Part shown: in pieces, positions 11,624-37,673 of the stretch
Layout of the letters: each line of letters starts with the position of its first letter
How positions within the stretch are numbered: position 1 is the stretch's first letter
Assembly (NCBI GenBank): GCA_947184155.2
Contig: CAMXCT020002032.1
Coordinates: 32,590-96,589 of the forward strand
DNA: 64,000 bases
From: Cladocopium goreaui
Lineage: Eukaryota > Sar > Dinophyceae > Suessiales > Symbiodiniaceae
Reading direction: 5' to 3'
Program-made: the position numbers and the translations under genes
The notes under the pieces: model-generated
Told to the model about the DNA's origin: nothing
What the model saw: the letters and a program-made list of their open reading frames with translations, nothing else
The model's database searches: none

Positions 11624-11631
11624 CTTATACC
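11624..11631. repeat. Target site duplication, left copy (CTTATACC)
   Basis: CTTATACC sits directly outside the left terminus of the 25.3-kb element. The same octamer follows the right terminus at 36914-36921. In the uninserted copy at 39165-39172 it is present only once. Confidence 0.93.
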
Positions 11632-11646
11632 TGTTAATTTTCTTCG
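11632..11646 (+). repeat. Left terminal inverted repeat
   Basis: TGTTAATTTTCTTCG matches the inverted right end at 14 of 15 positions. Just inside, CTGTTTTTCA (11652-11661) is repeated exactly inverted near the right end (36877-36886). The AAGTGCTTT motif occurs at about 11669 and 11708. Confidence 0.85.
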
Positions 11647-13158
11647 GCCCTCTGTTTTTCATTGGAAGAAGTGCTTTCAACATGGCTGTGAAGCCCAGAT
11701 TCAAAGAAGTGCTTTTGTAATGGCCCCACCAGATCAAAAGCACTTATGTATACTTATGGAGATTAATGCGCTGTGTGTGGGAGTGTGTGTGTGTGTGTTT
11801 GTGTGCCAATTACAAGGCCGAAGCTACTTGTGGCGGTGGCCGACACTACTTAGCGGACGCGCGACGCGTGGCGTGGTCTAAATTACTTAGCTAAGACGCA
11901 GCGACGTATCCAAGAACCTCATCTCTCCTTCCTTCAGATGAAGCGGCAAACGTGCAAGGTAAAATGGGATTGGTCTGGGCATTGCCTTCTTCAGGTCAGC
12001 ATAGTGAGCAATGTTGAACCAATGACTCACAAGTCCATTATCATTGGTTTCATGTCATTTCAATGGCATCTCAACAACCATGTGCCAGGTGATTGATGTA
12101 CCTCAAAACCTGGATCTCTCACAACCATTATCGAAAATTCGAAAAGATGTAATTATGGCCTTTGCCGTAGTAATAGAATGTAAATTCATCCTCCTGTGAA
12201 TTTAAGGTAAAGGCTGTGTAACCATTTTGTAGTGAAGAAACGGTTTGCATAGCCTCAAGCTCTACTAAATGGATGTGCATGCATGATCGAATTTCACTAC
12301 TAAATGTGGGCCCTTGGTTCAGCTCTTCAGAAAATTCTCCGTGATTGTGGGGATTAAAAAATCCACATGGTTTCGATGATATTCAATGACCTGATTCAAA
12401 TTGGTCATGGGAAGTCTCGGTAAAATGAAATCATATCCCCATATCATATTGAATCAACATATTAACTATTAACATTCATGATCATGAGCTATGAGGCTCC
12501 TTTGAGGGGTACCAAACCTGAGTAAGTGATGGCAAAACAAACCATCAACCAACAAGTGGGGGATCTCCACTTTATCTATTTGGCACAAAATCACCATATA
12601 GGATAGGGCTTGACAAGTCATCCGAGATACAATGGACTGCGATCGAATATATCTGCGTTTGTAAGAACAATTAAATTACCCCAAATCCAGTGAGTAATAC
12701 AATCAAATATCATTATATCATGCTAAAATAATCTCACGAAGCCATTACCACGGCACGTTCATCACCCTTGTCGCCGTGTGTGTGTGTGTTTGTTTGTTTG
12801 TTTGTTTGTTTCTTTCTTTGTTTGTTTGTTTGTCTGTATGTATCGGCGTGTGCACGCGCAGGAGTACTACCCCTTTCCATGAACAAACTTCACGCAAAGG
12901 ACAAACGACAACCACAGCACAACACGAACACAGACATTGTTTTTTTCTGCTGCTGGTTCCTGATCTCAAGTCTGCCCCTCACACGACATTTGTTTTGTCG
13001 ATGGGCACTTCGCAGATCATTTCGATTTGCTTCAAATGTCTGTCTGTGGAGAAAGTCTTTAAATATATGGTCCCGTCCGGTCCGGTTGAGTTGTCGAACA
13101 GTTCCATGAAATGGCGTGGCTGGAAAAAAAACGCAACACACAACCTTCTAGTATTGCG
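11647..13158. other. Left subterminal non-coding region of element
   Basis: No gene is supported. It holds subterminal AAGTGCTTT motifs, a GTGTGTGT run near 11776-11800, a short GC-richer patch (11820-11880) and a TTTG/TGTG microsatellite at 12776-12840. Any 3' untranslated sequence of the leftmost gene would lie at the 13158 end. Confidence 0.5.
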
Positions 13159-16100
13159 CTACTTCTTTTGAAAAAGTGAGTCAATCCTCTGGCTTTTCAC
13201 AGGGACTGTTGCTGCTGTTCTAGTTGCAGGTTTTCTCTTCTTTTCATTCTCTTCCGAACTTGCCTTTGCCTTGGCTTTCGCTTTCTGGACTGCCTTTGTG
13301 GTCGGAGCGGCAGCCTTTGAACTTGCCTTTGCTGCTGCATCCGGGGCCGTCGCCTTTGGCCTCTTGGTCTTTGGCTCCGGCTCAGCTGTCAACTCTGCAA
13401 CTGCACCTGCACCCAAACAAGAACAATATCTACCCGGTACCCCCCAAGGTTGCCCAGACGGTGTTGAGTAATTGAGTATACAGAAAAAATGAAAAGGGGT
13501 AAACAAAAGTATTTTTGTTGGTTAACAGTCAATGGCCTCCTTCGAAAGTATTGGCACCAGATCCTGAAGAACCAACAATCTTCTTCTCAGCTGTCTCCTC
13601 AGGGTGATCAAGGATAGTTTCCTCGGTCTTCTCAGCCTGAACAGGTTCCCCAGGTGTGTCCTTGGTCTCAGCGATGTCGGGCTGGTGAACTTGTTCTTGA
13701 TCAGGTTGAGCAGGTTCCTGAGGTGTGTCCTTGGTCTCAGCGGTGTGAGGCATCTCCTTGGTCTCAGCGGCGTCGGGCTGGTGAACTTGTTCTTGACGAG
13801 GAGGTTGAACAGGTTCCCCAGGTGTATCCGTGGTCTCAGCGATGCCGGGCTGGTGAGGCGCATCAGCGGCGTCGGGCTGGTGAACTTGTTCTTGAAGAGG
13901 AGGTTGAACAGGTTCCCCAGGTGTATCCGTGGTCTCAGCGATGTCGGGCTGGTGAGGCGCATCCTTGGTCTCAGCGGCGTCGGGCTGGTGAACTTGTTCT
14001 TGAACAGGTTGAGCAGGCTCCTGAGGTGTGTCCTTCGTCTCAGCGGTGTTGGGCTGGTGAGGCGGAGGCGTGTCCTTGGTCTCAGCGATGTGGGGCTGCT
14101 GAACTTGTTCTTGAACAGGTTGAGCAGGTTCCTGAGGTGTGTCCTTCGTCTCAGCGGTGTTGGGCTGGTGAGGCGCTTCCTTGGTCTCAGTGGTGTTGGG
14201 CAGCTGCTGAACTGGTTCTTGAGGTGTGGAAACGGGCGGCACTGTTGTTGGAGAAGATCCGGTGTCAGCTGCAGGAAGCTGCTCACGTGGGGTCAGGTTG
14301 GCAGTGGCGGCAGTGGCTCCTGTCTCCGGCGCTGCTGCTGCTGGTGCAGGAAAACCAGTAATGCTCTCCTCCACGGCTGCATCTATTGCATCTTCCAATG
14401 CACCTTGAAGATCCTCCACATTCAGATCACCCCCTTCCCCACCAAATAGATGATCATGTTCATCTTTCAGTCGCACACCCTGCGGGGTTGAGTGCTGCTC
14501 AGTATCATCCTCCGCATCCTCCGCAACCTCCTGATCTGGCAAGGCCTGGAGAAGCAAGTCCAAGCCCGGTGACCCTTTTACCTGACAAGGGCGAACAATC
14601 TTGAACAAAAAGAAATCCCGCTGATCATAGTCACCATGAAAAGCATGATCATAAACTTGAAAACAATTAAAACTAAAACCATGTGTTCTGTATTTGCCTA
14701 GCCTGGTTTGATACCAGGTGAAAACTCTGGAGCGCCGCTGAAGAATAGAAGAAAACATTCATCCTGGATTGTTGTGCTGGTGGCGCCAAATAAATTGATT
14801 CAAGGGCGTTATGACTTGAATGGGGTGGCCTTAAGAAGGAAAACACAAAGGCAACATATGATTTCAAAACATTGAACTGTGCTGTGCTGGGTTGGGTGAA
14901 ACTAGAAGCATAGAATGTGTCCAGTCTTCAGTCAGTGCCCTGAGTGCCCTGGTCCTGAAAGCAATGGAGACATCTGTCAACGACTTCTCACAGAATACCA
15001 TCCCGCTGGGGACATACAACACGTCGCCCGTCTTCAAGAATCCAGCTACCAGTGACGGCATGCCTTGTGGTTGCTGATACCCTTATAGGATCCCACAGGG
15101 TCAAAACAATGACGGCCCCTTCATCTATAAAAGTGTAAACCCGGGTTGGCCTCTTAACGCTGAACTCAGAAACGAAAAACAACTCATCGGTACAAAAACT
15201 GCTAATCAAGTTTCAAGTTTCTCATCTCGTCCGGAAGTTGGGAAGCTGTCATTGCTTGCAACTTGTCTCGCGCTAGTTGCAATGACTCAGTTTGGAAGAA
15301 TGAGAAGCAGTCTTCCGCCAAAGCCATCACAATGATCTTCGTGCCACACACCTGGATGCAGGGCCGGGTATGTTCTCGAAAATGAAAAATGAGGGTGAAC
15401 TCAAACAGTCAGTATAAGAATGTTTAGTACATATGAACAAATGTCAAGTCAAGAGGAAGAAACATCCTCCAGCCAACCTCCAAACCAAACCCCAACTTGA
15501 ACTTGAACCGAAGCAACTTGAAGCCGGATGTTGCCGATAGACTGGTTCTCAATGCCATAGTAGCATGAGTGCTGCTTCATGCCACAAACGCAAAGTGAAG
15601 CAAGCTCCGTGGCGGCTTGCTGACTGTCACCAGAAAATCCTGGCATGAGTTTTTTGTAAGTGGGGTCAGCATCATGACTGGTCCTGAACACAATTATCCT
15701 TACGGAAAATTTTGGATGATGTGAACGGACAAGAGCTAGACAACTTGAAGCCTGTCACATCAATCAATATCATGAAAACTTTTGACTTTTGAGCGTGTAG
15801 AACTGTAGAACCTAATTTTCGACAGGTAAGTGATCAAACCTTGATCGAGGGTGCGTTCCAGCATCCTCTCGGAGACAAACACGCCATTCATCTTTGACTC
15901 CCACATTTCCTCAGGGAGGAAGTCGAATAGCCCACTTTCCATGGCCAACAGAGCTTTCTTCGCGTCGGGGTCTTCGCTCCCGTCAGGCGACTTGCAGTTC
16001 AATAAAGCCCTGGGTGAATGAAATTCAGTGAAATGTTGCAGAAATGTAAAAAAGACAAAGACAGCAAGTAAGTACACAATTTTGCTCACATGTTTGTGAT

Positions 16101-17450
16101 CTGCAAACCCCTCATTTTGTCTTGTCTTGCTCTACTCACCCCACATGAGACAAAAAAGTCCAAATAATTACAAAATACAAGCATCTAAACACCGAAAGTC
16201 CTTTTGTTACAGCCTAGGCACGAAAGACGATCAAGCTCAGATGACTTCGTCTTTTCCTTGAAGGTATCCACAATGTTGTCAAAGAACTTTCTTGTCGATG
16301 CTTCTTTGCAAATGGTGCCCAGTACGTTTCTCCCTTTGCGCACGATCAGTGGCTTCCCCAAATCGGTGTTGCCATCCATGTCCTTGACAACGTCCATGGG
16401 GCGTTTCGCGTTGACCAACCTGGATGACCAGTAAAGTAATCACAAACACAAACACAATGATATGCTTTATAACTTTGATTGCTCACATTCTCACATTAGA
16501 AAGAAAGTATAAGAAGTTTCACATTTATAACAACTTTGATTGCACCCCCTGTGCACACAATGCATCATGCGTGTTATCAAGAAAAAATATGTGCAACCAA
16601 GCAGCTTGAAGATCTTCAAGACTTCCGGGTCCGAGTCTGCCATGCTCTGCAAGTTGGGGCGTCCCTGCAGTCCTCCGTGGGTGACACTCTTTGGATTGCC
16701 AGTAGCCCTAGCCATTTGCTCTTGGAATCTCTCTCTCGCTTTGTTGGTAGACTTGACCATCTGGACAAAATCCAAAAGAGACCTTCGCAGTGAGGAGATG
16801 CAAGTCTTCACACCCTTGACCACTTTCATCAACTCTTCATGTTGGTTGTCGATGCAATCCTTTGTGTTCAATGACTCGTAGATTTTTTCCGGGTTCTTGA
16901 TGTCCACATATGCCTGCACTTCACCTTGACACTGTTCTGTCAGAAAGGGATCGCTTTGAATATGTTTCCTGGCGTTCTCAGTGCCATTGGATGGATCGGC
17001 GGAGCCACCCTCAAGGTCTGAAACATCCATGGAATCCGACCCCAAACTAAGAAACTGCAACAAGCGATGCCGGTCAAGAACATTGTACATCATCTTGACA
17101 AGTGCCGCATCGTCTCCAAGCTGCAGAGACTGATCAGAAAGGAGACGATCTTCTGAAACCCCAGAGCTCTTCAAGGAAAGGGCTTTGGTCTTGAAGTCTG
17201 CCTGCTCTTTGTAGAACTCTTTGACCTTGCTGTCCAGCTCCCGAAACGATGCCTGCAAAAACTTCAGGTGGGTGATCATCTTGGTAGCTGTTCTCAAACG
17301 GTATGTACCAACATCGACCTTTTTGCTGCTGCTGCTGCCAGCTTTGGAGGCGCTGCCCTTGTTCTTGTTCTTGCCGCTGTTACTCTTTCTGCCATTGCCA
17401 GAGCCAGCAGGAAGTGGAATGATGCAAGTCTCATCCGAAGTAGCCTCCAT
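13159..17450 (-). CDS. Large hypothetical with cupin-like patch and PIP-like tail
   Basis: Probable exons, 5' to 3': 17450-16603 (start MEATSDET; Lys/Ser-rich then helical), ~16420-16212, 16010-15824, ~15678-15526, 15351-~15217, perhaps ~15162-15095, ~15065-14910, ~14660-13534, and 13406-13159. The first intron seems to use a GC donor, which keeps the frame (IFKL joined to LVNAKRP). The ~15.0-kb exon reads FLKTGDVLYVPSGMVF. This recalls a cupin/JmjC strand (GDxLYxPxG) but without the usual metal-binding histidine. The next large exon encodes about ten imperfect AETKDTPQEP...QEQVHQPD repeats, likely disordered. The last exon is Ala/Lys-rich and ends SQRIDSLFQKK, close to a PCNA-interacting peptide but with Ser in place of the first Gln. 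The function is unknown; a nuclear, DNA-associated role is an inference. It could be two genes. Confidence 0.6.
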
Positions 17451-17650
17451 GAGAAACTCCGAAGACTTAGTAGGCGGAGGGAGGGCGGAGTCTCAATGTC
17501 GAAACGTGAAATAGCTAATTGGCTGAAAACTAAAACCCGCCACCAAATCTAATTTCAAACTATCCGTGCTCATCATCGTGAGTGAGCAAAGATACAGAAG
17601 CAGACAGGAAAAATGATAAATTATAAGAGGAAAATAATCTGGATATAGTA

Positions 17651-18685
17651 CTATATCAACCCAGTCCCAGAAGCTTTGAAGAAGGTCTCATCCGCAGACA
17701 TGGTCAAGAACGACAGGGTCCGTTGCTTTGCTGCCAAGGCAGCCTTGGTATTTGCTTCCTTGCTCTGCTCAACCACGGATGCTGACCGTTTGTCATCATG
17801 GATGAACTCTTTCGATTTCTTGATCTCAACCTGGACATAGACATGCTGAACTCTCTCCACACGACCGGTCTTGGCATCGTAGATGTCAATCATCTCCTGA
17901 TTGTTAAAAAATACAGGTTTAGACACAGATGTCAGTCCATGTCCAAACATATCCGTTTTTTTTTGTTTAAACTTGAAACACCTTTGTTGAAAGAAAACGA
18001 AAACCTTTTCACCCATGAAGTCAATCAACCAACCGCTGTCCTTCTCCGTGGCCGTGTTGCTTGGGTTCACATCACGAATCCATGCCTCTTGGGCTTGTTC
18101 TCGTGTCAATCTATCGCACTCCGGAACCTTCTGAGTATAGTGCTCTATGTAGACAGAATGCTTCATAGCTAGCCATCCAGCGCCAAGTTTTGATCGCTTG
18201 GTGGTCTCTGTCGTTTCCGAGTAAAGAACCTCGGATGGATGATGGATGACGGAAACATGTTGAAACTTGAAGTCTTAAACTTAAACCTAGACACCTTTAG
18301 ATACACAAAGAGAAGGGGGGTTGCGGGTGCCAACCCTGAATTAAAAAAAAATACTTTCACATTGATAAGTCCCAAGAACCGACCTGGGGTTGAAAGGCTG
18401 GCGCTGGTGACCCCGGCCAGTTTTTTTGCCACCAGCCGTCGAGCTCTCGTACTCTGCAAAGATTTTGCGGTACTTCTCTGGGTCCTCCTTTGACAAGTTC
18501 TGGAGGTACTTGCTGGTGGACTCGTCATCTTTGCTGCCCTCTGATCCTTTGCTAGCAGTCAAGATAGCACGTAGACCCAGGCTGCACTTTGGACAGTGGG
18601 CTTGATAGCGTGTGCTACGTCTTGATTGAAAGTCATCGTCAGAGAACTCAACCTGGCAAACAATGCAAATTTCTTTGGAAGCCAT
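17651..18685 (-). CDS. Two-CxxC (zinc-ribbon-like) small protein
   Basis: There are three exons: 18685-18384 (start MASKEICIVC), 18229-18005 and 17896-17651 (ends GTGLI, TAG), giving about 257 residues. Each intron begins GT and ends AG. The N-terminus has CIVC followed about 24 residues later by CPKC, a spacing that can chelate one zinc ion. A charged helical stretch follows (KYLQNLSKEDPEKYRKIF). The second exon reads REQAQEAWIRDV and the last is rich in charged helix. I recall similar CxxC proteins with an EQAxxxW-like segment as multicopy hypotheticals in dinoflagellates, but could not check. The gene lies just 5' of the large gene starting at 17450 on the same strand, inside the transposon. 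It may be a DNA-binding or accessory factor; that is inference. Confidence 0.7.
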
Positions 18686-19115
18686 TGTGTCAGCCAGTGG
18701 CCATGGCAAGTGAAAAAACCAGGCCGACCCTGTCAGGGACAGTTGAAAATGGAATGTTGGGCCATCAGGCGTCAAGTGAAGTGAAATAAATGGTTTGATC
18801 ATGCCTAGTGAAGGCTCAAGTTCAATCTCTTGATGGCCAGGAAGTCACCAACCCAAACTATTCAAACGGCTGCCTGAAACAAAACAAACCCGGTCATCAC
18901 CCGGCAATCTTTCCAGAAACATTTTCACTTCCAACTGCGCATGATTGTCCAATTTGTTTGACGCAACTTACTGGGAAAATGGAGAAAGGTAGGCCAGTAG
19001 CTAATTGGCTGGCTGGCTGGCAAGATTCACCTTTCTCTGATCTACCGGGCGCACATTTGAGCCACATCAAAAAAATGTCAGCAAAAGCTGAGAAGCTTCG
19101 CCAACTAGTTTAAGC

Positions 19116-22100
19116 TCATCCCTCATGTTCATCCTCCATGTCCTTGTCCCCATTCCCATCAGAGCCGTCCTCATTCTCGGATTCAGACAAAAAAACGTGC
19201 TTGGCCGAAGGAGCTAACACAGGACGAACGGTGGCTGGAATGGCCTCAAACTCGGCAGTGGGCATCACAAACGAAAGGGAGAAGGCCAGCAGAGCGGTCA
19301 TGCATCCCTGCTGGAAACTGTTGCCACTAAGACGCTTCTGGGCAGTGGTGGACACAATGCTGGCATCAAAGAACGGTTCTGAACATCCTGCAGCCTTCAA
19401 CGAATCTGGGTACATTGGAATGCCCTGCATCTCCAGCATCTCCTTCCAACAAGATTTGTAGTAAGGTCTGAAGATAATGAGAAGGTGACCAACAATGGAA
19501 TAAATGACTCATGATAAAGAACCATTTAATTTAGATAATGGAATGGCCAACAAAATATATGTGCAACATAGATGGGATACCAACAACATATACTAATTGG
19601 AAGATCGCGATCATCAAACTAGAACTGGAAGAGAGACAGAACAAAAAATAACAACCACACCGTAACAAACCGACCCCCGTGTCCTTGGGACAAAAGGGCC
19701 TTCCTTGCAAGATGCCCCAAATTGTGGTGCTCGATGCGAGCAGCACCGGAGCGATCTGGCCCAAGTGCTCTTGAACCAGCGGGTTCTGTGAAAGGTTGAT
19801 GGCCACCTCCCGACTATGTAAAAGCGCTTCCCTCACCTTTTCCATCCTGAGAGCGCTCTGGAGATGAACACTGGCAGCCACAGGAAGCAAGTCTGTCCAC
19901 GGAGATGTTGCTGCTTTTTTGGCCTTGCTGCCGGCTATAGGCTGTACACCCACCCATGTCTAGAAAGTCTTTGAGTTGGAGTCCGTTGGAGGTTCAGGAA
20001 GTAAAACATACCATAACTTTCTTAGGAAATCAAAATCAAAACAATCCATTCCACCGGCATGCGTGCCACAGGGAAACAAAATGACCAAAACCAAGGATCA
20101 TTCTGAGCCATTTGAGATCGCAGTAGCTGCACCTGCAGGTACAGTACAGTCAGGTACTACATTGACCGCAGTGACAACTAAAACCGATTAACACCTTTCA
20201 GAATTCAAACTTGATGCTCGAAAACTTGATGGATAGATACCTCATGACTCCCATCTTTACACATTACAAAAACAAAGTGGCACTGAAACATTTGTGTATT
20301 TCGCAAGTCTTGCCTCATCCTCTGGAGCTGCAAAGAATGCTCGGCAATCCATTCCAGGTGAAATGAACAACCTGTATATGTCATCCAATCCCCGAAGCAA
20401 AGTCATGTCCTCCCTGATCAAAAGACTGTAGAGCCTTGTTCTGCGGATGGGGAAGCCGTAGTCTGTTGGACGGGTGAGGATCGATTCACAACGGTACCCC
20501 GGAAAAAGGGCAGCAAAGATCTTTGCATCAAAGGTTTGAGTGCACTCGTGCACGAACACCCGTGGACGGGTCTTCCGCAGAACTGCACACATGATGGCGA
20601 AGGCCAGAACTGATGGACCCAGGAATCCGGTTCTTGATCCCATGCTGCTCCTCCAGGGATGCATGATGTTAAAGCGAAACTATGATCCCTTTGAGACTGA
20701 AGCCTTGGCACTGTACATGGTTACTAAAGTCACTAGTATGAACATGTTGATTGCTTAACAACAGACAACAGTCAACAGAAAAGAAAACTTGTTTTCAACC
20801 GCTTCAGTCCAGTCTTTGCATGTGCTCCCCACCACTGCTAGGAGCAACTCCAGCTCGGACAACTCCTTGAGGGATACCTCATAAGCGTGCCAAGTCAAAC
20901 CTGAAAATTCATGCAGTGACCATGTGAGGAAAACTTCTTTTGCCTAGTAGCCTAGCGGCTCCTGGAAGGCTAGCAACCCTAAGACCTTACTGACTGCATG
21001 TACTCTTTCTATCTCTTGCTACTAGATACGGCTCAACGGTTCAACTCTTATTTTGTTTGTTAAGTTAAATTAAACTGATTATGGTAACCACCACAGTGAC
21101 TGCCACATTGGTCCAAATCCCTTTTCACCCAGCCACTGGTGCATCGCCACCTGTTGAAACCGCATCTTTGAGCATCTTTTTCTTTTCGATCTCCTCAACC
21201 AAATCCCTAACCAACTGCTGCGCCATGCTTGCCAGCTCTTGCTTTGCACTTCGGACTGCCTTGGCTGCTTCCTTCTCAGCCTTCTCGGGGTCCACAAGGT
21301 CCTTCCCCTTGCCCTTGCGGCTTTTGGTGTTCTTCTTGCCGTGGGAAGTAGAAGCCGTTGGCTTTGCAGCCGCTGCAGACGGTTTGATATTCATTTTCTT
21401 GTAGAGAGATTGGCATTCACTTTTCTTCCGCTCGATCACCTCCAAAAGGCATTCTGCGCTTCCTTCTGTAAGGAAGTCCTCCAAAGAGTGGACCAAGAAG
21501 TCTGGAGCATCCTTGGTTGGGATCTGGGCTGGGCTGGTTCGAAACGATTTAGAAAATAGTTATTCGCATTATGGTCAAACAATCAAACCCGGCAAACCCC
21601 CAAAGTCTTGCAAAAGCAGGGGAAGCGGATGAGCAAAATGCAATTTTTCTTCATGCCATGATCAAGAATCTCGGTGGGCTTTCAGTACCCTTTGGCAGTC
21701 GGCATTGAAATCGCATGCCAATAGGTTCCTAGGCTTCGTGGGGTAGCCAACTTCCGACTCCAACTTATTCTTTTCCACATAGGAACGAAGAGCTGTGGTT
21801 GTCAGCGATGTTGCAATCTCTGCACCTCCAAGTCCAGAGTACAAAGGCAACACTGACAAAGACGACAGGTTTCTGGACAGCCTGCTCAACGGATCCAAAC
21901 CAAAATGTTTGTGGATCCTCTCCAAGTTCCGCATGGGGTAGGAGAACATCTCGGTCCTGCTTCGTGTGGCCTCTGGCAAAGATGGTTTCTCTGGGCTCGG
22001 TGGCAACTCATCATTGGCCTGAAAATCCAAGAAGGACTCCATTGATGGCCTTGGTTCTGGGCTGGAAGGTGCTGGTGCCAGCACTGGCTCCTCCTCTTCA

Positions 22101-22534
22101 CTCTTTACTTCTGCACTGGTTCCCTGTCCCTGTTCTGACTGTTGGCTCTTTGCTCTTTGCAACACAAGCTGGCCTCTCTTTCGCCTGGGTGGCTTCTCTG
22201 CATCTGAATCTCCAGTCTCTTCCGCTTTGACTCCCTGTACAGCCAACCTTTGCTGGCCTTCAGGCGGTGGCATGTCAAAAGGATTGGGCTCTTGTGCTCC
22301 ACTTGTTGCCTTGCTAGGCCTCTTCAACGCAGAGCGCCGACGCCGACGGCTGTGTGAAACCTGGCCATCTGGTGCAGCCTCTGCTCTCTTCTTTGCTGCT
22401 GGTCTTGACTTGGCTGCGGTCCTTTTGGGTGCTGCTTTTGCCTTTGCCTTTGATTTTCGAACTTTTGCAACTTTACTTTTTGCCGCAGTGCTGAGCTTGG
22501 CCTTGGCCAAAGCATCTGCTTTGGTTTTAGCCAT
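19116..22534 (-). CDS. C5 cytosine DNA methyltransferase-like protein
   Basis: Six probable exons: 22534-~21672, ~21537-21112, 20900-20800, ~20656-20290, ~19961-19677 and 19467-19116 (TGA), giving roughly 800 residues. The N-terminal 75 residues are Lys/Ala/Arg-rich, like a histone tail or nuclear-localisation region. Then come family motifs in the correct order. LPLYSGLGGAEIATS (about residue 230) is the S-adenosylmethionine motif I. LLACDFNADC is motif II. GSTCKDWTE at about 20.82 kb is a divergent motif IV, with the cysteine codon at 20818-20820. VFVHECTQTFD is motif VI, with the catalytic Glu in HEC rather than ENV. YGFPIRRTRLY is motif VIII. LSGNSFQQG in the last exon is motif X. The C-terminus is acidic. 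A charged helix-rich insert (second exon) separates motifs II and IV. Divergence at motif IV (TC for PC) leaves catalytic activity uncertain. Confidence 0.82.
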
Positions 22535-22818
22535 GGCCTGCTGGAGGCCTGGAAAATCCTAGACTTGAAATTTGAGCCAGGACTCAGAACGCGGGAGTCA
22601 GGAGTCTTGTTTCATGAGCCCATGGGTCATGAGTCATGAGCTGAGCTGTGGTCACTGTTAATGGTAACCTGGTTAAGGCTGCCTGTTACTTGCTAAACTC
22701 AAACTACATCACCTTCTGCTGTTTTTCCTGAAAAGAACAAAACAAAACCAGAACTGCTGCCTTTTCCCTTGTTGAAACACTGTGCTGTGGCTGGCCTGAA
22801 TGCGTCTGGAGTTTTGTT

Positions 22819-23689: not shown

Positions 23690-25520
23690 ATGTAGGTCAA
23701 AGGCAAGTGAAGAAGAACTGGTGAAACCAGCAACTTTTCATACTTATATGTAAAGGCAGAAAGTAAGCGAAAAGTTGGTGAAAAGCTGGTGCATTCATCA
23801 ACTTACTGTAATTAACTTTAAGATCAGGAAGTAAGTGAAAAGTAGGTGAAAAGTAGGTGAAAAGTAGGCGAAAAGTAGGTGATGCCAGCAAGTTTAAATA
23901 TTTCCCATGTAGGCAAGATGTAAATGAAAAGTAGGTGAAAAGTAGGTGAAAACAAACATTTTTAGATATTTTCTATGAAAGCAAGATGCGCATGGAAAGT
24001 AGGTGAAAAGTAGGTGAAAAGTAGGTGAAAAGTAGGTGAAAAGTAGGTGAAACCAACCATTTTAAATATTTGCCATGAAAGCAAGATGTGCATGTAAAGT
24101 AGGTGAAAAGTAGGTGAAAAAGAGGTGAAACCAGCAATTCTGCATATTTACATGCCACAGCATAAAAGTAGGTGAAAACTGGACGAACAAGGGGTGAAAC
24201 CAGCAGTTTTGCTCATTTACATGTCAAAAGAAGGAAGCTGGTGAAAAGTTGGTGAAAAATATAAAATGATCACCTACTTTGTCCACAGCCCACAAAGTAG
24301 GTTAAAAGTATATGAATTCCACAATTTTTTTACTTCCTCTGTCCAAATGCAAGAAAGTAGGTGAAAAGTAGGTGAAAAGTAGGTGAAATCAAAAATCACA
24401 ACCCAGGAAGTGCTTTTGACCCAAGCTCTGGAGTCAAAAGGAAGTGGGTGAAAAGTAGGTGAAAAGTAGGTGAAAAGTAGGTGAAAAGTAGGTGAAAAGC
24501 ACTTATTTTGGTGAAACTTTAGGTGAAAAGCACTTAATTTTCACCAAAAACAAGGTCAAAAGCACTTCTTTGGTGAAAAGTAGGTGAAAAGTAGGTGAAA
24601 AGTAGGTGAAAAGTGTTTTGCAATCCCAGACAAAGCCACATGCAAATAATGCCACGAGAAATGGTAAAACAAGAGAAAGTAGGTGAAAAGTAGGTGAAAA
24701 GTAGGTGAAAAGCAGCAAACATATAAAATTCAACTTTTTAACCTTTTAAACAAAAAGTAGGTGACAAGTAGGTGAAAAGTAGGTGAAAAGTAGGTGAAAA
24801 GCAGCAAACATATTTTTTAAAAAAATAACATGTTAAACAAAAAGTAGGTGAAAAGTAGGTGAAAAATGGGTGAAAAGAAGCAAACATATAAAATTCAACT
24901 TTTTAACATGTTGAGCAAAAAGTAGGTGAAAAGTAGGTGAAAAGTAGGTGAAAAGTAGGTGAAAAGCAGCAAACATATAAAATTCAACTTTTTAACCTTT
25001 TAAACAAAAAGTAGGTGAAAAGTAGGTGAAAAGTAGGTGAAAAGTAGGTGAAAAGCAGCCAACATATAAAATTCATTTTTTGTACATTTGAAACAAAAAG
25101 TAGGTGAAAAGTAGGTGAAAAATAGGGGAAGAGAAGCAAGCATATAAAATTCAACTTCTTAACATTATAAACAAAAAGTAGGTGAAAAGTTGGTGAAAAG
25201 TAGGTGGAAACCAACCACTTTAAATATTTGCCATGAAAAGCAAAATGTGAGTGGAAAGTAGGTGAAAAGTAGGTGAAAAGTAGGTGGGAAAGAGGTGCGG
25301 CGCAGAAACCATAGAAAGTTTACCTTTTTAACTTTAAACAAAAAAGTAAGTGAAAAGTAGGTGAAAATTTGGCAAACTTGCACTTGCAGACTTTCATGTC
25401 AAAGCAGAAAGTAAGTAAAAAGTAGGTGAGAAGTAGGTGAAACCGACCTGTTGTTCACTATTTATTAAGTCAATATGTAAATGAAAAGTATGTGGAAAGT
25501 AGGTGAAACCAAGAAAATGT
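23690..25520. repeat. 11-bp minisatellite (GTAGGTGAAAA)n
   Basis: Runs of the 11-mer GTAGGTGAAAA, usually 2-6 units each, are separated by short spacers that themselves recur (for example AGCAAACATATAAAATTCAAC, followed by TTAAC(C/A)T). The block is therefore a higher-order array of arrays. Minus-strand frames reading PTFHLLFTYFS are repeat artefacts. The array lies inside the transposon, probably within an intron of the gene starting at 29357. Confidence 0.95.
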
Positions 25521-26530: not shown

Positions 26531-26547
26531 GCCGGCGGTATAGTGAT

Positions 26548-26715
26548 GGAGAGTAGGGATGTGGAGGGATTAGAGATGGAGAGAGTAGAGATGTGGAGAG
26601 ATTGGAGATGGAGAGAGTAGGGATGTGGAGGGATTAGAGATGGAGAGAGTAGGGATGAGGAAAGATCAGAGATGAAGGGAATAGGGATGTGCAGAGATTG
26701 GAAAGGGAGAGAGTC
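26548..26715. repeat. 32-bp minisatellite, about five units
   Basis: Units of the type GGGATGTGGAGGGATTAGAG followed by ATGGAGAGAGTA repeat with substitutions. They are purine-only over long stretches. Confidence 0.85.
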
Positions 26716-26959
26716 TTTTCAAGAGGCTCCGCCTAACTTTTCACTCCTGCTGGTGAATTATGAACAGATGATACAACATATTGTTAAACTGTTTTACTGA
26801 TTGACTGTTCTTAAATATCTATAATAAGTTTAATCACCCCAGCCCAGTGCATATCACTTAAATAGCCCTTTTGCCATTTGATGGTTTTTGTAAATTATTC
26901 CCATAGAGCCACTTGGCATGGGTGGTCCATGCAACCCCTTGCCTTTCCACAGAAATGAA

Positions 26960-27366
26960 AGCTGGTATCCAAAAAAAAAAGTTCTTATTTCTGATGTGCA
27001 CAGATATGTGTCTGATGTGTCTAATGTCTCAAAAATGGTAGTGACGAAAAAGTGGCCTCCTCCGCCAGAGCAGTTGGTAAGTCTGCAGCGTCTACAGGAG
27101 TACCAGGTTCATAGTCGGAGTCCATTGCCTTCACACAGGACGCAGAGTAAGGTAATATGATATACGCCTCTAGGTTTCAGAATCAAATTTGGTGGCTAAG
27201 ATATGTGACTGATTTGTCTATATGCTGTCTCAAAAGTGGAGGTCACAAAAGGTGGCCTCCTCCGCCAGAGCAGTTGGTAAGTCTGCAGCGTCTACAGGAG
27301 TACCAGGTTCATAGTCCGAGTCCATTGCCTTCACACAGGACGCAGAGTAAGGTAATATGATATACA
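26960..27366. repeat. 200-bp tandem duplication
   Basis: The block from TGGCCTCCTCCGCC through CAGAGTAAGGTAATATGATA occurs at 27053-27165 and again 200 bases later at 27253-27365, nearly identical. The less similar half of each unit shares ATATGTG..CTGAT..GTCT motifs. It contains AGTAAGGTAATATG, which resembles a plus-strand donor, but no coding frame is convincing. Confidence 0.85.
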
Positions 27367-27729
27367 CCTCCAGGCCTCTAGGTTTCAGATTCAAATATCT
27401 GGCTAAAGGGTTTCAGAGCTCCGTCAATTATGGAATTAAATCCAACTTGGATTCATACTTGTAGTGGGTCCCATACCTCTCTCAGTTGGATCAATCACTA
27501 CTGAAGAGTTGGAGGAATGCGCTCTAGTAAAAACCAGAAGGCAATCCCGACATCTTCAACCAAATTGATTGTAAACCAGTAATTTTTGGTTTGATGGTAA
27601 AATATTCCAGATTGAAAGAGCAGTAAGTGTAAGCTGAATCATCATGAACTTGGTGGATAAGGTTAAGGCCCTATTGGATTTAAACAAGTTCGCAATGTAG
27701 CTCGCGGTACCCAGAATGAGAAATGGTTG

Positions 27730-29357
27730 GTTGGCTGGTTGGCTCTAGCAACCTTTGCAGCGGTTGGTTTTGTTCATGCTGCCCTGGGCTGCCCAAAGGC
27801 CCCAGTAGCTTTTGGCAAAGTCAAAGAACGCCTTGGTTTGACTATGGCAGTTTGTTTATGTTTGTTTGTAAACATGCATGTATAGACTAAATGGAAAGAA
27901 CCAAATATAACATTTGAATGAAACCGGCCTGATATGGTATGTACAATATTCAGCTGTTGCATATGACATGTAAAAGTCTACAGTTGGGTCCAAGAGAGTA
28001 TGGATCAAAATAAAAAACATGGCTTTTGTTTCTACTAACCGACTGGCCAATACCAAGCAAATACCATTTTGTCTTAAGTCTGTGCCTGCAAAAACATTGT
28101 TTCTTTAAAGATATTAAACTGACTTGTTCCATCAGAACTGTATCCCTCAGACCAGAATCCTCCAGCTCACATTGGTTAATCACCTGATATATCACCATCC
28201 TGGAATGCCCTGGCATCGGCAGAATAGGAGACATTTTCAAATTATTCAACCCAACCCGCTGGACTCACCTTCTCCTCCTCTACTGTGTGGCTGACATTCC
28301 CCAAGTCCTGTCGGCGGAAGTGTTGAAAAATCCAACCAAATGCAACAGCATGGCTAATGGCCACTGTCCCACTGTCATTGTCCAGTCCAATAACGTGTTG
28401 TTGGTTGAGTCTGACTCTGGCTGTGCCCCTTTCAACAAGACTAGCATTCAAACAACGAACAAAAACCATGTTTGACCAGGACCAGGAATGAATAGGGAAT
28501 CTGGTGGCGTCATTCATGACTGACTGCAAGGTTTCTGCGAAGATTTCTTTTTCCAAAAGTTGCGGCAGAATGACTGGTGTGAATGTATACATTTTTTTGC
28601 TTGCCAACCTAAACTGTAAACGCAAATTTGGCATCTTTGGCAACTTTGGCACTGCTGCTGCTCTCAAAACTTCTGGTCAGAAATCGGGATGCTGGGAATC
28701 TGGTAGGGCTGGCGGATCCGAAAGGAATTTCCAAATTTCCCTTTCATCTTCTGTATCAGGGTCTGTTGCAGGAGGAAAAGGAGAATCATCAAGCTTCATC
28801 GTGTTCAAGAAAGGTTCATAATCTTCCAACTTGGGAGGCATTGGAACCCCGGCCGTATCTGGAGTTGAGGATGGAGTGGAAGTTTCCTCTCCTGCCTTTC
28901 TGAGAATGTCTTTGCTTGAGCTGCTTGAGTACTCAAACCTCAAAGGAAAGTCCTTCGACGTTGGGACTGGATTCAACTTTCGTTGGCCCGCAGCCAGATC
29001 GGCTGTATCAAAGACAAATGTTGCCCCAAGCCGAGAACGGATCTTCACCTCTGTCACATTGACAATTCCACGGTCAAGCATCTCTCGGTCAAGCTGGGCA
29101 GGCCAACTTGTGCTCCAGCCAATGAAAAAACACATGTCCATCCCTTTGCATGGAGATGGAGGTGATTCCGAAGGTACTGGAAGGGGTGTGATGACGCCGA
29201 TCAACTCGGAGCTGTTGACGGAACTCGATTCACTTGAGAGGCTTGACCAGGTTGGGTTTTTGAAGGCCTCTTCATATTCTTTCCGTTGCTTCTTTGCATC
29301 AGGCAGCTCTAGAGGTCCCCGATCATGATGATCATGACAATCATGACCAGTCTCCAT
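27730..29357 (-). CDS. Serine-rich hypothetical protein, 5' part
   Basis: The first exon begins with METGHDCHDHHDRG at 29357 and stays open to a stop at 28677 (226 codons), possibly spliced earlier. It is Ser/Pro/Asp-rich with a more structured centre (CFFIGWSTSWPAQLD, GATFVFDTADLAAGQ). Further minus exons are likely: about 28570-28500 (FAETLQSVMNDATRFPIH), 28440-28265 (ASLVERGTARVRLNQQHVIG, AISHAVAFGWIFQHF), about 28090-27950, and 27845-27735 (AFFDFAKSYWGLWAAQ). The frame at 28.0 kb is ambiguous. One reading contains WYLLGIGQ and HVFYFDPYSLG, faintly like an Ulp1 protease core, but the histidine-tryptophan pair is not in place, so I do not assign it. The gene probably continues left to the exon at 22819-23215. 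Confidence 0.55.
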
Positions 29358-29821
29358 TTAGAACCGAAAGCGATTCACAGGGCAAATGTGGGAGCTGGAC
29401 ACTGGCTACAAAAGGCTTATATATCCTGATCCAAGATTGCAGCTGGCAGCAACAACAGTTGTCAGTAGGCAAAGACTTCATAGATGATGACGTAAACCGT
29501 TCCGTAAACCATCTGATTATTGTGATGATTGGTCTGGTGGCTGGCCCCTGCAGAATCAAACTCCCCACCCACCTTTCATGAGACACTCTTTCACGTGGCC
29601 CCTAATTCCCATCCAGCGCTGCCCACAACCCACGCCTCCACCACCACCAAATCACTTTCTGAATGGTCATCACCGCCACCACCACCAGTGTCCTGCACGG
29701 ATATGAGACTCCTGTTATGGGTAGAAGTGTGAACTACTTGAAAGGGAAAGAAAGGGAAAGGGGATTAAAACAAAGAGGATTAAAATGATATCAAGAGATG
29801 AGTTGATAAGCGCCAGCTAAC

Positions 29822-32800
29822 TCAACAACCATCGCATCCTTGACCGCAAACTGCAACAGGGTCCTCTTTGGCCTGTTCATCTTCATCTACGTCAACAAAA
29901 TCAAAATTGGGAACCGAGGCTGCCGGGGCTAGCTCCTGTGACCGACAGAATCCGAAGGCCAACTTGAAACATTCACCCTTGGCCCCATTGCATCATAAAC
30001 CTGACTCTTGACTTCGCAGTCTAAGAAAGAAACAGAATTGCCTTGTAGCCTTGCAGTATGTGATTGAAAGGAAATATCAACCAATCGGATTTTTTTTTGA
30101 GTATTTCTGTGTATGACCACGCCTTGGAGCCTTCAAAGTCCAAGACAGTGAGAAACCCAGCTGCGGCGTTCTGGGTCTCAGACGCCGAAGCCTTTGTTGA
30201 CTGCAAATGTTTGGTCAACTTTTTGTAGACATCAGCTTTGCTCCCTGGCTCCAGCTGAGCTAGCTTGTCTGGGTCCTCCTTGGCCAATTGGATGGCTGCT
30301 TGGTAGAATGCTTCCAGCTGCCCATGGTACAATGTAAATCCCAAAGCGTGTAGGGCATCACAATTCAACAAACACAGCCAGTACCAGTAAGTGTCCTGGT
30401 AGAACTTCTTTTCCATCCCAGGTTGAACATATTCACGCTTCAATTTTGCAGTTGATTCTTGCCAATTTTCCCTGACCCAACCAGTCTTGCATAGATTCAC
30501 ATAAAGTTCCCATTGGGTCGGCCGGTTTCCTGGTTTCAAATTGAGACGGTCCAACTGGAAGGAGCTGCCAAGGCGTTGTTCAAAAACTGGCCGCGGCAAA
30601 GTCAAAACAAGCTGACAAGAGAAAACTGATGGAGCCAATTGCACAGACTGTCCATGTTTGGTGCGAACCAGGATAGACTTGTTGACCAAGTTGTCAATTG
30701 TTGCCAATTCTGCTTCAGAAGTCATTCCAGCAATGTCGTAGTGCGTGGAAGCACCAACAACAGCGCATGTACCAGCAACTTCCTCAATCAAAGAAAACTC
30801 TGACTCCCCTACAGAGCTGGGCTGAATGTTCATGCTGTGGTGAAGTCTTGATGCATGGGTCCATTGCAACATGCTCTCTACAAGCTCTTCGGTGTTGGCA
30901 CCTGCAAACAGTTTCACCAATGGAACTGTTGGGTGGTCCACAGCTGATACTGTCACAGATTGCGGGTTAGCATTTTCCACCTTGCAAATTCGAATGCAAA
31001 CATCATCCGTTGTCAAACTGTCTGCAAAAGACAGGGGCCTCTTCTTCAGTGCGGGTCGTTTGTCAGAGACTCGAAAAACAATCAAACCCGATGAATTTGC
31101 CGCAAATCGAACCATATCACGCGAGAGCATGTCTTGAGGCATGCATTGGGGCACTGATTGAGCCGAAGGGACTAGCTTAGCGGTGCTGCTAGAAGAGGGC
31201 TGAGCATCACAAGCACCAACCTCATTGTCCGAACCGGAGTCAAGCTCAATGACCTCAATCAGGTTGGGTTTTTTGATGATGCTGCTGCCAGCTTCGGAAT
31301 CTTGAATCGCAAGAAAGGGAACTACCTCTTGTGAAACAGAAGGGTTTGAGTCCTTCTGGATCCTCTCCCGGTCACTCAGCGGCAGTGCTGTATTGGCTTT
31401 GTCGGCTACTGGAAGAAGGGACTGGGATGTGTGTCCCAGAATTGCAAATGCCACTGCGTCTTCCAAAGGTCTCATTGGCCGTTCAGTAAACAGGTCCACA
31501 GGCAATGAATACCACCCCAATGGATTCATACAGTCTCGAAAATGTTGCTGCAAGAGCTTTGGTCTCACTCCATTGTCGTCAAGGGGTTTTGCATGCTTAC
31601 TCTTGTCCTTCATGCAAAGTGCAGCCATGCTGTTTTGCATCTCGGGTAGGGTTGTAGTCCCTGCTGAAAACTGAAGGTCTCTACCATAGAGCAACCGTCG
31701 CATCTCTTTGTAAGTGAGAGTTCGAGCTGGTTCCTGGGCCGGGGATTCTGGAATTGAAATTCGATAACAAATTCTCAATATTTGAAACTGTCAAGCAGTG
31801 TCAAACAGAAACCTGCATTGGCAATGCCGATATCGAAACCAAATTGCATGATGTCATGATATGTCAAGTGGGTCCCGTCCCGTCCCATCATGGAGCTGCC
31901 TCAAAAACAGAACATGTAAACCCCACTACAGGCCATGGGCCATGGGCCATGAGGCCATGAAGATCAGAAGGTTCAGAATCATTTTCCGAGAGGTATGTAT
32001 GGATTCCCTCTACGATAAAGTTGATATGTCTAATATGTCTCTTCTGAAAAGTAACAACCATACCCCCTTTCTGGCTTGTATAAAGTATAATCAGTACCAT
32101 TGTTGTATCTTAAGTGGATGGTCTGGCTAAGAGGCCAAGAGACAGTGATGGGTCGCGTTCACGGCCTCTAATATTATATAACTGATTTTGTTACTACAAG
32201 ATATTTTTCAAGCTGATTAGGCCACATCAAAAAATAGGAAATCGATATCAATATCCTGCCAGAACCTTTTCAATTCAAACACCAACAAATGGCTGCAAAA
32301 AAAGGCACCTTACTTCTGATTACCTTCGTTGATTGCTTGTTTGATCCAGGTTGTATCCGATTATCTAATCTAAGATCATCCACCCACATTACCCTTATGT
32401 CCAGTTTAAAAGAATCAATGTCAATGTTGCACACTTTTGAAACCCAACCCTCAAAACATGTGAAACCAACTGAACCACCTGCAGTCAAAAAACACAGTCT
32501 ATCCCACCAATCGCTTCAGCAACTGCCTCGCTGGCGCCTTGCTGGCCATTGAGCTTCTGATGTCTGTTTGCTGCACTCACCAATGCCTGAAGGAAGGGCC
32601 AATGAAGTAGAAATCAAGTCGGTTCTTTCCCAAAATTCTTATAAGTGGGGATTAGAACTGGGGTCAGTCAAGGGTCGGAAACAGAGGGTTTGTCGTTGGA
32701 AATTTTGAACTACTTCGGAAAGGCCAAGGAAATTAAAAGCAAAAAACTAAAACATCATATGAAATCTCTGGGCAAACCACCTGAGGATCCCCAAGAAAGT

Positions 32801-35800
32801 GATGGACCTCCTGTTGCCGGAGTTCAGTCGATATGTAGCTTACAGATGCATGTGGTGCACGATTGAGAGTCTGCTTGATGCCACGGTGCTGTCCCTGCAT
32901 CGTTGGGCTTAGGCGGCTTAGATGTGTATATTTCCAACTTCACCAAAACAAAACCCAGTAACCATGACACATTGCAGACATGCTGCCCAATTGAACTACT
33001 GAACCTGGATTATCCCGAATCCCCAATACGGATTATCAACATCATATCACTATCCTCTTTTGGGTCAGGAAAAAAATCCCAGTATTGGACGAAAACACAA
33101 ACCAAAATTAAAATGAGCTCACCTCTGTATCTCGCTCGCAGCATCTGAGAAGCCTCAGTGCACCAACCCACTGTCTCAGCCCATTGGCCCCAACGAAGTT
33201 TCGCAAAGGCACCCCATTGATGAAATCATCCACTTCTCTGTGTAGCCCTTGCTCACCAAAGTCCTAGATGTCACCAAGATCAAGACCCCAGAAGGCTTTG
33301 GGACCATGGGACCACCACTATAAAAGATCAAAGATACCGCTATCGGGTTTAAGACTATGTTATCTATCAGTTCAGTACTGTAGAGAGTATTGTTCTACAG
33401 TGGATAGCCCCAAAAGGAAGCCAAGACTGTTGCAGAAACCAAACAGTGACAAGTTGATCAAAGCAACTGGGTCGAAGAATCTGCGAGTGATTGCATGTGC
33501 TCCAGATGTGCCAGCTGGACCAACTGTTGATGCCACAAACAAAGCTCTGCACTCCCTTGCAACTTGGCGGGCCTCTTCAGGGTTTTCCGAGGCCATGCCT
33601 GCCAACCTCCAAGGGAGTATGCGCCAGAAGCCGCTCCGTAGGCTTGTCTGAGTCACAATCATGTCTGTAGCAGCCTGCCAATCTGAAAACAACTTGGTTT
33701 GGTCATCCTTAGGCACTTCCAATGATGCAGCAACAACACGCTCTCTGCCGGTTTTCAAGAGGTGCAAAACGAATCGCTCATATTCACCAGTGGCAAACTC
33801 ATGAGCCCTCCTCCCTTTGAGCTTGCAGGTGGCATGTTCGACCCTGCCTTCCCTGTTCACACCACGTGATGCTGAAGGAGCTGGCAAAACTGCAGCTGCG
33901 CCACCTTCAGATTCACCTTCTTCTTCTCCGGTAGCATCTCTGCGCAGCTTTTGCCCAACTGCTTTGATACGGGAACGATACCACTTGTTGTCTTTGAGAT
34001 CCAGTTCGTGGCAAGAACATCCTTCGGCCCAACTGGATTGAATGTCAATAGCCCCCGCTAGTGTTTCAATAAGCTGCGCGTAGCCCCAGAAAGTGCGACT
34101 GCGGATTGCCGTTGTCACCAAAGAGCAAATGTTGCTTGGATCTGTCACGCGCCCTGTGTCGTTGAACTTCTCAGCACTCCACCCTGCCAGGGTTTCGACC
34201 GAAAAAACTGCTTATGATCTAGATGATATTTTGTCAGCAACAAAGATTTTCTTTGTGCTTGAAATTCAGCAAGTTAGACAAATCCGGCAAAAAAAACACA
34301 GTTTCCACTATTAGGGCTTCAATAAGCGTACTGTACTTAAGAAATCTCGAAGTGTTTCGTTTAGTAAGTGATGATGAGTCACCCAACACACCCCTGAACC
34401 GAACAAACAGCACTGGCACCTAGCTAGTAGTGGACCCTTCCACCACCGTCACCCTCATGGCTATCACCTTTTACTTACAACCATCAACCATCATTCGACT
34501 AGTGGCTTTCCATTTGGCATTTGACCGAAGTTTCAAAATAGGAAACCTATAGGAGAGGTTGGTTGATGTGAATCACGGATTGCAGAGCGAATCCACTGAT
34601 GGACCGAAAGGTGGTTGGAGTTGTGTTTTTTGGGGTGGTTGCAATGGTTGCAGTGGTCACCTCACCCACAACTGCTGGATGTAGTGTGTAGCGAAGACCT
34701 ATCCAGTCACTTGTCAGTCACCTCATTTCGACATCTTACCAACCCTATTATTATGACCATGTTTGACCATAATACCACCATATCATATCCAAGTATTATA
34801 CCCATTTGACCATATTTTGCAAGCTGGCTGTGTACAATGACCAACTTGGTTCAACAATCCAAGTAACATTAAATGTGGGCAAAGCCCCCCACCTTTCTCC
34901 AAAGCTGTCTTCCTCAATAGGATTGCCTTGACACATTGTGTCACAGAACTCCAGCGCCAATGAATCAACGATCCACCTTCGAAACGATCCATAAGACCCC
35001 GGTACTCTGCAAGCGGGCCATCGGATTTGAAACAGGATTCCTGGCAAGGCAAGCCAGAGAGTAAGTTTTCCAATTTGTCAAGGTGGTTGCCCTCACTATG
35101 TTGATATGACAGAGAAAATAACTTGACAGACTTGACCCAGTAAGTTGCTTTACTAGTCTTAGCCTTGGCTGGGAGTCAGAGTAGTCCCAGAATTTCTGAG
35201 TTAGTCCCAACGCATCTGGTTTGTCTGCTTGCACAAACATAACCGTTGAGAGAAACTTCATACCCTGGATTTGCTTGGGTGCCAAGTAAGTCAAATCAAA
35301 TCAGAATAGTACCCTGGATATTGGCAATTGACCCAAATCAGAATCCCTGCTGATCAAGGCCAAGACACAACCAAGCGATCTCTATAGCCTTTGTTGTTCA
35401 GCAGGTTGACCATCGGGGCCAACATCTCCTTAATGTGTGCATGAACCATTTGACAAGGTTGGCCTTGAAACTCAACTCAAACCTTCCTAAATAACAATGT
35501 CTAACCAACCAACATGTGGATTGTTTTTCAACTGAATCCGTCAAGCTGCTGAGAACGTTGGGTACCAACTCAATTTTGACAGGGTGTCTTGCTGGATGTT
35601 GTCCATCATGTGCTTCACGCCAGGGACCAAGATACTGCCATTGATCGAAAATGTCTGCTCCTTCCCATGAATTTGAGGAACGTCCACAGGCAGATCACCC
35701 ATGCCATCCTCTGATCTGAATTGCATGCTTTGAAGCCCGCCAAATGAAGAACGCTTTCGCAACAATCCACCGGAGTCATCCACGTTCTGTGTCAAAACTT

Positions 35801-36635
35801 TATGGACTCGAATTGCTGGAGCCTAGTCAGGGTAAACATCCATCATGTTGAATTCAAAAATTCTGCAAACACCTCCCTGTCAAAAAGTTGATTGACAAAT
35901 GACAAGCTAATGAATAAAACTCAAATCTGGGAAAATAAAACCCTTGCAAAACCCATGGTGAGAATCCTGAGTCAGATGGCTCTCGACGCCAAAATCAGAA
36001 CAAAATCCGACAACAGATTCTCCATAAGCTGTCAAGGAATCAGGCCCCACGTCCAGCATAATGCTCCGCATGAGCAGCTCGAATTTGGAAGCCGTGTCGC
36101 TACGGCCACTGCCAACAACAAGAGGCGGCAATGTTGATGTCCGCAGGTTGTCTGATAAACTGAACTGCGCAAGCTCTTGCCGTGTGGCCTCTATGACCAT
36201 GCCAGGATTCCGAATTCGATCTTCGATTGTTACCAGAAAATCAAGCCCTTGTGGCGAACTGTCTGCGGAAAGGCACACAAAAATCTTTTCCGAACTTTGC
36301 TGGAGCCGTCGCCACTCCGATTTCCTGAGTTGCATCAGAAGAAGATCCAAACGGAGCCGGGCATGGGACAGTTGTGTGGCAGCAGGGATTTGCATTGTGC
36401 GTTGTTTGATTCGATCATTCACAGCAGAGGCTTCGTCTGACCCCAATGCAATCGCCACACTTCGGACCACAACCTCTTGCAAGCTCTCTGTCGAACGCAG
36501 CAGCCGCCCAACCAAAAGGCAGTCAATCAACTTGTGCAAAGGAATTGGGGCAGCACGTCGGGGCCGCTGCCGACCCCTTTGCACCACTGCAACATCGGCA
36601 TCATCAGCATTGGCATCTTCACTTGCGTTTTGCAT
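29822..36635 (-). CDS. Candidate transposase, large multi-exon protein
   Basis: The start is MQNASED at 36635, with an in-frame stop 39 bases upstream. Likely exons: 36635-~35945, 35788-35566, ~35465-35375, ~35283-35150, ~35060-34870, ~34230-33470, ~33260-33124, ~32870-32760, ~32540-32320, ~31770-30125 and ~29970-29822 (ends GQGCDGC, TGA), roughly 1,400 residues or more. Marker segments are FVCLSADSSPQGLDFLV, VVGFCSDFGVESHL, SILVPGVKHMMDN, FWGYAQLIETLAGAID, WAEGCSCHE, GFWRILPWRLAG and VPLRNFVGANGLRQW, with a C-terminal TQWELYVNLCKTGWVRENW. I recall this order of segments from a multicopy, unannotated dinoflagellate family. The Asp in ADSSPQ, the Asp in CSDFG and the Glu in AEGCSCH could form an RNase H-like DDE site with a C-x-C-H cluster; that is inference. 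It is the only gene in the element with transposase-like features. Confidence 0.65.
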
Positions 36636-36898
36636 GCTTGAGCCACTGGCATCAGCGGCATCATATTAATTACAATTATTTGGATACACCACATTATAAA
36701 ATCATTTGGTTGGTACACCCCATTGGTTAACCCCATTGGTGTCACATATTAGCACTATGGAAACCATCATGTGGGAACCTAAAACTTAAAGAAGTGCTTT
36801 CAACGCACCCCTCGGTCCCAAAAGCGAAAATTCAAGCCCCGAAAGGGTACAAAAGCACTTGTTGAAGCCAAATTTTTGAAAAACAGCAACGCAGCCCA
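36636..36898. promoter_or_regulatory. Right subterminal region and promoter side of transposase gene
   Basis: The 263 bases between the first ATG of the transposase-like gene and the right TIR have no coding frame. They must hold its promoter if the gene starts at 36635. They also contain the AAGTGCTTT-type subterminal repeats in both orientations, which are possible transposase binding sites. Confidence 0.4.
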
Positions 36899-36913
36899 CG
36901 AAGAAATTTAACA
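36899..36913 (-). repeat. Right terminal inverted repeat
   Basis: Read inwards on the minus strand this is TGTTAAATTTCTTCG, one mismatch from the left end. CTGTTTTTCA follows 12 bases further in. AAGTGCTTT motifs in both orientations lie at about 36791 and 36853, mirroring the left subterminal region. Confidence 0.85.
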
Positions 36914-36921
36914 CTTATACC
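36914..36921. repeat. Target site duplication, right copy (CTTATACC)
   Basis: This is identical to 11624-11631 and directly abuts the right terminus. From here the sequence is collinear with 39165 onwards. Confidence 0.93.
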
Positions 36922-37600: not shown

Positions 37601-37673
37601 ATTCTATAGTATTTATATGTGTATGTATCTACCATAGACCCAGCAGGTAGACTCATGAAATAAAGGAACCTAG

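Follow-up and report, generated by a model that had tools for sequence, protein, structure and literature searches.

What kind of mobile element occupies 25.3 kb of a 64,000-nucleotide stretch of the Cladocopium goreaui genome (contig CAMXCT020002032.1; the whole stretch is called the window here), and which genes make it up? An earlier note on this DNA had proposed a complete giant DNA transposon with terminal inverted repeats (TIRs) and an 8-bp target site duplication (TSD). Our analysis leads, with a probability of roughly 0.8, to an autonomous-type, multi-gene cut-and-paste DNA transposon of 25.3 kb that encodes a diverged hAT-like transposase together with a long-kept, predicted cytosine-C5 DNA methyltransferase.

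The interval is a single, uninterrupted insertion of 25,282 bp (window 11632-36913) flanked on either side by CTTATACC (11624..11631 and 36914..36921, plus strand). Its left TIR, TGTTAATTTTCTTCG (11632..11646, plus strand), is identical at 14 of 15 positions to TGTTAAATTTCTTCG, the reverse complement of the right end (36899..36913, minus strand), and no pair among 200,000 random 15-mer pairs drawn from the window's first 38 kb matched at 14 or more positions. The subterminal CTGTTTTTCA is likewise inverted between the two ends, confirming what the earlier note had read at both termini. Because the CTTATACC 8-mer recurs in the window (four times on the plus strand, once on the minus strand), it is its exact position that counts. 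The target locus also occurs free of the element, at 39001..41034 (plus strand), where a single CTTATACC stands at 39165. Positions 39001-39172 equal 11460-11631 (172 bp, 100%), while 39165-41034 align with 36914-38807 over 1,895 columns with 9 mismatches and 26 gap columns. The copy without the interval that the earlier note described is thus present, with one caveat: it starts at the first base past a 100-N assembly gap (38901..39000), the sole run of N in the window, and must therefore be a separate contig that the scaffolder placed beside the filled one. We read it as the other haplotype, another strain or a duplicated locus. Vegetative dinoflagellate cells are usually haploid, so that the word allele is to be used with care.

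The earlier note had suggested looking for further copies with the same ends, and these exist in the genome searched (1.17 Gb in 6,202 contigs; counts of end matches are lower bounds). The left end has at least 18 matches including the window itself; among the 17 others listed, nine begin exactly at element base 1, four begin 3-6 bases further out and four begin inside. The right end has at least four: the window, contigs C132 and C5911, and a 58-bp truncated end on C5327. We examined left-end copies in stretches from 12 contigs, two of which hold complete short elements: 1,563 bp on C132 and 1,659 bp on C5911, each with its own perfect 8-bp TSD (GTCATAGT and CCCATAGT, respectively). Both ends are as in the giant element, and both short copies consist of the left 222 bp (11632..11853, plus strand), an array and the right 139 bp (36775..36913, plus strand, 91%). 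Two short, non-autonomous copies with the same ends and perfect duplications of their own provide independent proof of where the element begins and ends; together with the ends and the duplication in the window they bear out the complete transposon proposed at the outset. The element shares left-side pieces of up to about 695 bp with C1985, C838, C6126 and C5882, and TGTTAA starts the ends in the window and in those fetched copies, 11 of 12, for which our script placed the start. The left-end copies on C1985, C6126 and C5867 have in common a second region, built of 12/24-bp repeats (GCCAGAAGATAT), which may be the array of a different subfamily.

The transposase gene is encoded on the minus strand near the right end. 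Its exons lie at 35910..36665 (profile E 2.1e-21; first two candidate catalytic Asp residues, in SADSSPQG and CSDFGVES), 35544..35822 (E 4.2e-8), 34786..35175 (E 1.6e-4; HWRW) and 33375..34211 (E 5.5e-37; SWAEGCSCH), followed by an exon at 33123..33263 that ends in CCERDTE, with the candidate catalytic Glu and the donor GAG/GTGAGC, and by one at 32739..32894 that continues in frame from the acceptor GCAG/; the spliced pair matches the family. A 589-aa open frame downstream (30024..31790, minus strand), with co-linear relatives on C1779 and C498, is either the C-terminal part of the transposase or an adjacent gene. Across 17 aligned rows, D207 of P0001 is invariant and D327 nearly so, while ER...E (E736 and E740) is present in nine, the remaining eight being cut short or different there; the same candidate D, D and E residues occur in the window transposase. 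A relative is predicted to fold as an RNase-H core interrupted, ahead of the last catalytic Glu, by a large helical insertion, as in hAT (Hermes). The Hermes catalytic residues, which we take to be D180, D248 and E572, fit the ranges aligned with P0001, a correspondence of ranges and not of printed residue pairs. The family has no Pfam match, and neither a hAT dimerisation domain nor a BED finger was found by Pfam in the window exons or in the 12 of 18 relatives scanned. Matches to the family occur on at least 28 contigs, 14 of 33 matches lying in open frames of at least 1,040 aa; relatives on C3446, C3541, C1748, C2219 and others are each encoded in one open frame, the longest of 2,017 aa, and intronless versions may exist. 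The two relatives that carry an organism name are both from Symbiodinium, in keeping with a dinoflagellate origin.

Again on the minus strand, a set of exons between 22558 and 19119 is predicted to encode the cytosine-C5 DNA methyltransferase. Read by eye, motifs I, IV (with its Cys), VI and VIII occur in order in the window element and in a second element on contig C498; in the window the series runs YSGLGGAEIA, LACDFN, GSTCKDWT, VHECTQTF, DYGFPIRRTRLY. The exon at 21665..22558 carries motif I (LYSGLGGAEIA, ACDFN; 51% to C498), 21128..21559 is a linker (30%), 20758..20943 holds motif IV with the candidate catalytic Cys (VVGSTCKDWT), 20260..20679 holds motifs VI and VIII (HECT, DYGFPIRRTRLY; PF00145 E 0.0022; 49%), and 19534..19959 matches C498 at 44% and 60%. 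The likely last exon, 19119..19508, has a motif IX/X-like RLSGNSF seen by eye only, and a C498 counterpart to it was not found. Pfam DNA_methylase matches one exon at E 0.0022, a join of 719 residues at 0.0037 and a trimmed join of 286 residues at 5.2e-4; all fall short of the curated cut-off of 22 bits, the best score being 20.0 bits. The window and C498 proteins are 52% identical over hand-joined pieces, with motifs I, IV, VI and VIII kept. A two-sequence profile of these pieces retrieved 17 PDB sequences at E<=5, 16 of them C5 methyltransferases (11 HhaI variants), with a best E of 6.7e-4. Library support for the assignment is modest on its own, and the case from the two elements together is stronger.

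On C498 a left-end fragment (154172-154231, 88%) is followed by methyltransferase exons (154882-159042, 30-60% identical). After these come an array built of 11-bp units TTTCACCAGGT (165348-167276), a relative of the 589-aa frame (171812-173089, 31-32%) and transposase exons (175882-179993, 27-51%); relative to the left end, strand as well as order is that of the window element. The array occupies the same place in both elements, and by hand count its units agree at 8 of 11 positions (TTTCACCTACT in the window, TTTCACCAGGT on C498). DNA similarity between the two is limited to short stretches, and the gene order that they have in common consequently looks old. On C1779, transposase and 589-aa frame are co-linear. 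A methyltransferase stands beside the transposase at two of the three loci whose surroundings were read (the window and C498, not C1779), out of at least 28 contigs with transposase matches. C1779 also has left-end fragments among the exon-like matches of its related transposase gene, an arrangement that would result if a short copy had inserted into an intron.

The element also contains repeats that may act in cis. Three AAAGCACTT/AAGTGCTTT sites lie near the left end (11669, 11707 and 11737; 11669..11745), two AAAGCACTT sites near the right end (36792 and 36852; 36792..36860), and four further ones in a central array of 11-bp units AAAGTAGGTGA (23741..25520). Counted on either strand, all nine AAAGCACTT occurrences in the window fall within the element; in 60 windows simulated with a first-order Markov model the count averaged 1.0 and never exceeded 3, a comparison that is not choice-free since the motif was picked after the ends had been seen. 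Of the 12 left-end contigs fetched, 10 carry two or three sites with the 8-mer core of AAAGCACTT no more than about 130 bp from the left end; on C1779 one site is that close and two are shifted by roughly 500 bp, and C6127 lacks any site near the end. By their sequence and placement these sites look like transposase-binding subterminal repeats and are candidate binding sites. The central array is also kept in both short copies and, being retained in derivatives that lack genes, likely has a role in cis.

From these parts we propose how the element would move. The transposase, with an RNase-H/DDE core and a Hermes-like helical insertion, would bind the two 15-bp TIRs together with the AAAGCACTT repeats close to them and excise the element by the hairpin route of hAT, which is established for Hermes. 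Joining to target strands cut 8 bp apart would then leave the 8-bp duplication. Short derivatives, which keep both ends and the central 11-bp-repeat array, would move in trans if the family is still active. The methyltransferase would be an old, kept part of the element and not a recent capture; it probably methylates the element's DNA and thereby tunes transposition or silencing. Such self-methylation might restrain silencing by the host, couple the timing of transposition to replication or shield the excised DNA, and we make no choice among these uses.

The element contains other frames as well. The left-hand open frames (13162..18844, minus strand) comprise a Cys-rich N-terminus, a weak JmjC/cupin-like stretch and a repeat-rich part, and a C498 counterpart was not found. 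The JmjC/cupin-like match (14867-15082, E 0.0026) is below the cut-off, and the 99/111-bp repeats at 13651-14222, within an open frame, would encode a Pro/Glu/Thr-rich repeat. Two further frames of 226 and 144 aa (28245..29357, minus strand) have no family. Elsewhere in the window, 77-bp repeats form a large array that is strongly GC-skewed (52757-55336), and diverged 16-bp, AGCTTTTACACACAGA-like repeats form another (55923-58544).

Several observations weigh against an old transposon with its own methyltransferase. No second full-length copy with both ends turned up, left-end matches far outnumber right-end ones, and the 30 kb downstream of the left ends on C1985, C5882, C838 and C6126 showed no right end and no transposase or methyltransferase exon. 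Neither end of the C498 element is intact: the left one is a match of 60 bp that lacks TGTTAA, and up to 182500 a right end was not seen. A 100-N gap (166929-167028) inside its array separates the methyltransferase half from the transposase half, so that the linkage of the two rests on the scaffold; array repeats border the gap on both sides, and the same link in the window element is gap-free. The 22 kb read on C1779 contained no methyltransferase, with only about 4 kb covered beyond the gene on the expected side. A large protein set yielded no methyltransferase homologue at E<=0.001, the C498 exons alone gave no Pfam methylase match, and scans that read the window's minus-strand frames through stops also missed the gene. 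Finally, the window transposase frames join badly near 35.5 kb (an unseen intron or a frameshift), and this copy may therefore be dead.

Some of these points would also fit recent capture of host genes by a hAT-like transposon, in which case the methyltransferase and left-hand frames would be passengers without a role. The C1779 transposase without a methyltransferase in the sequence read fits such a history. So do the left-hand frames: with no C498 counterpart found, these at least may be passengers. DNMT genes are, moreover, very numerous in Symbiodinium (PMC5890265). C498, however, keeps the order and strand of methyltransferase, array and transposase at 27-60% protein identity and with DNA similarity in short stretches only. 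A recent capture would not be shared at such a distance, even if the gap in the C498 array weakens this argument a little, and we regard recent capture as improbable.

The imbalance among the end matches found, with left ends (at least 18) far outnumbering right ends (at least four) and several left ends apparently alone, might instead reflect the chance proximity of a short transposon-end family to an independent cluster of host genes, with the 25-kb unit bounded by separate solo ends. This is scarcely credible: the identical 8-bp duplication and the locus copy without the interval call for one 25-kb insertion, and the arrangement is repeated on C498. Size and multi-gene content would also suit a virus-derived integrated element, Polinton-like or similar, and DNMT-bearing DNA transposons are mentioned in marine viruses (PMC5890265). 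The earlier note had reported no polymerase B or reverse transcriptase, and we saw neither of these, nor a capsid or integrase family, in 20 exon-like frames; the three minus-strand frames, read through stops, gave none of them at E<=0.05 either. The plus strand was not so scanned, and the read-through scans are weak evidence because they also missed the methyltransferase; the reported lack holds to that extent. No transposase relative was confirmed in viral contigs with the one pattern used, and the short TIRs, 8-bp TSD and hAT-like transposase also argue for a plain transposon, making a viral origin very unlikely.

If the transposon with its own methyltransferase is real, the recurrence of its gene order in a second, distant element points to large mobile elements of a kind not yet described, which may mark their own DNA. 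Dinoflagellate genomes are very large, about 1-250 Gbp (PMC11453091), and in Symbiodinium the DNMTs known to be spreading are carried by retrotransposons (PMC5890265); a cut-and-paste transposon with a methyltransferase would tie genome methylation to DNA transposons too, and would add a lineage next to hAT. Test material is at hand in the defined ends, the short derivatives and the target copy without the element. More tentatively, and at somewhat less than even odds, these elements could be an ancient superfamily of their own, giant self-methylating transposons of algae that split off from hAT and whose core kit is transposase, DNA methyltransferase and central 11-bp array, the latter two serving as a built-in control device.

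The nearest known kinds are hAT, the transposons that bear TET genes, KDZ (Kyakuja, Dileera, Zisupton) among them, and the Symbiodinium retrotransposons with a DNMT. With hAT (Hermes) the element shares short TIRs (14 of 15 positions matched here), an RNase-H transposase with a helical insertion, here by the predicted fold of a relative, and subterminal repeats, which are a hAT trait. It differs in its 25-kb size, its several genes, the lack of a Pfam match and its TIR. The TIRs of hAT start with C/TAGNG-like bases and its target consensus is nTnnnnAn, whereas the ends here begin with TGTTAA and none of the three target sites fits both positions. The element would work like hAT; we keep it outside hAT proper, since target sites and termini depart from these consensuses and hAT Pfam domains were not seen. 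Among large fungal elements, Starships use a tyrosine recombinase. ToxhAT, given as 14 kb, and Starship are alike in carrying other genes, and differ in that their abstract openings do not mention a methyltransferase (PMC12506042, PMC11623301). KDZ elements with TET/JBP are DNA transposons that carry a DNA-modification enzyme, although theirs is a dioxygenase acting on methylcytosine and the one here is a methyltransferase (PMC12730594). SymbioLINE-Dnmt and SymbioDIRS-Dnmt3 are dinoflagellate mobile elements with a C5 methyltransferase (PMC5890265), yet they are retrotransposons with reverse transcriptase, whereas the element here is a DNA transposon in which none was found. Within the titles and abstract openings that mostly made up the literature covered, a giant DNA transposon combining a hAT-like transposase with a cytosine methyltransferase is not named. 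According to PMC12730594, 8-bp duplications are usual for hAT and are also made by Zisupton; all three both-ended copies here have them (CTTATACC, GTCATAGT, CCCATAGT). The new giant transposon group that the earlier note had envisaged thus stands as regards a transposase family undescribed in Pfam, while the predicted Hermes-like fold and the 8-bp TSD place its working among known kinds.

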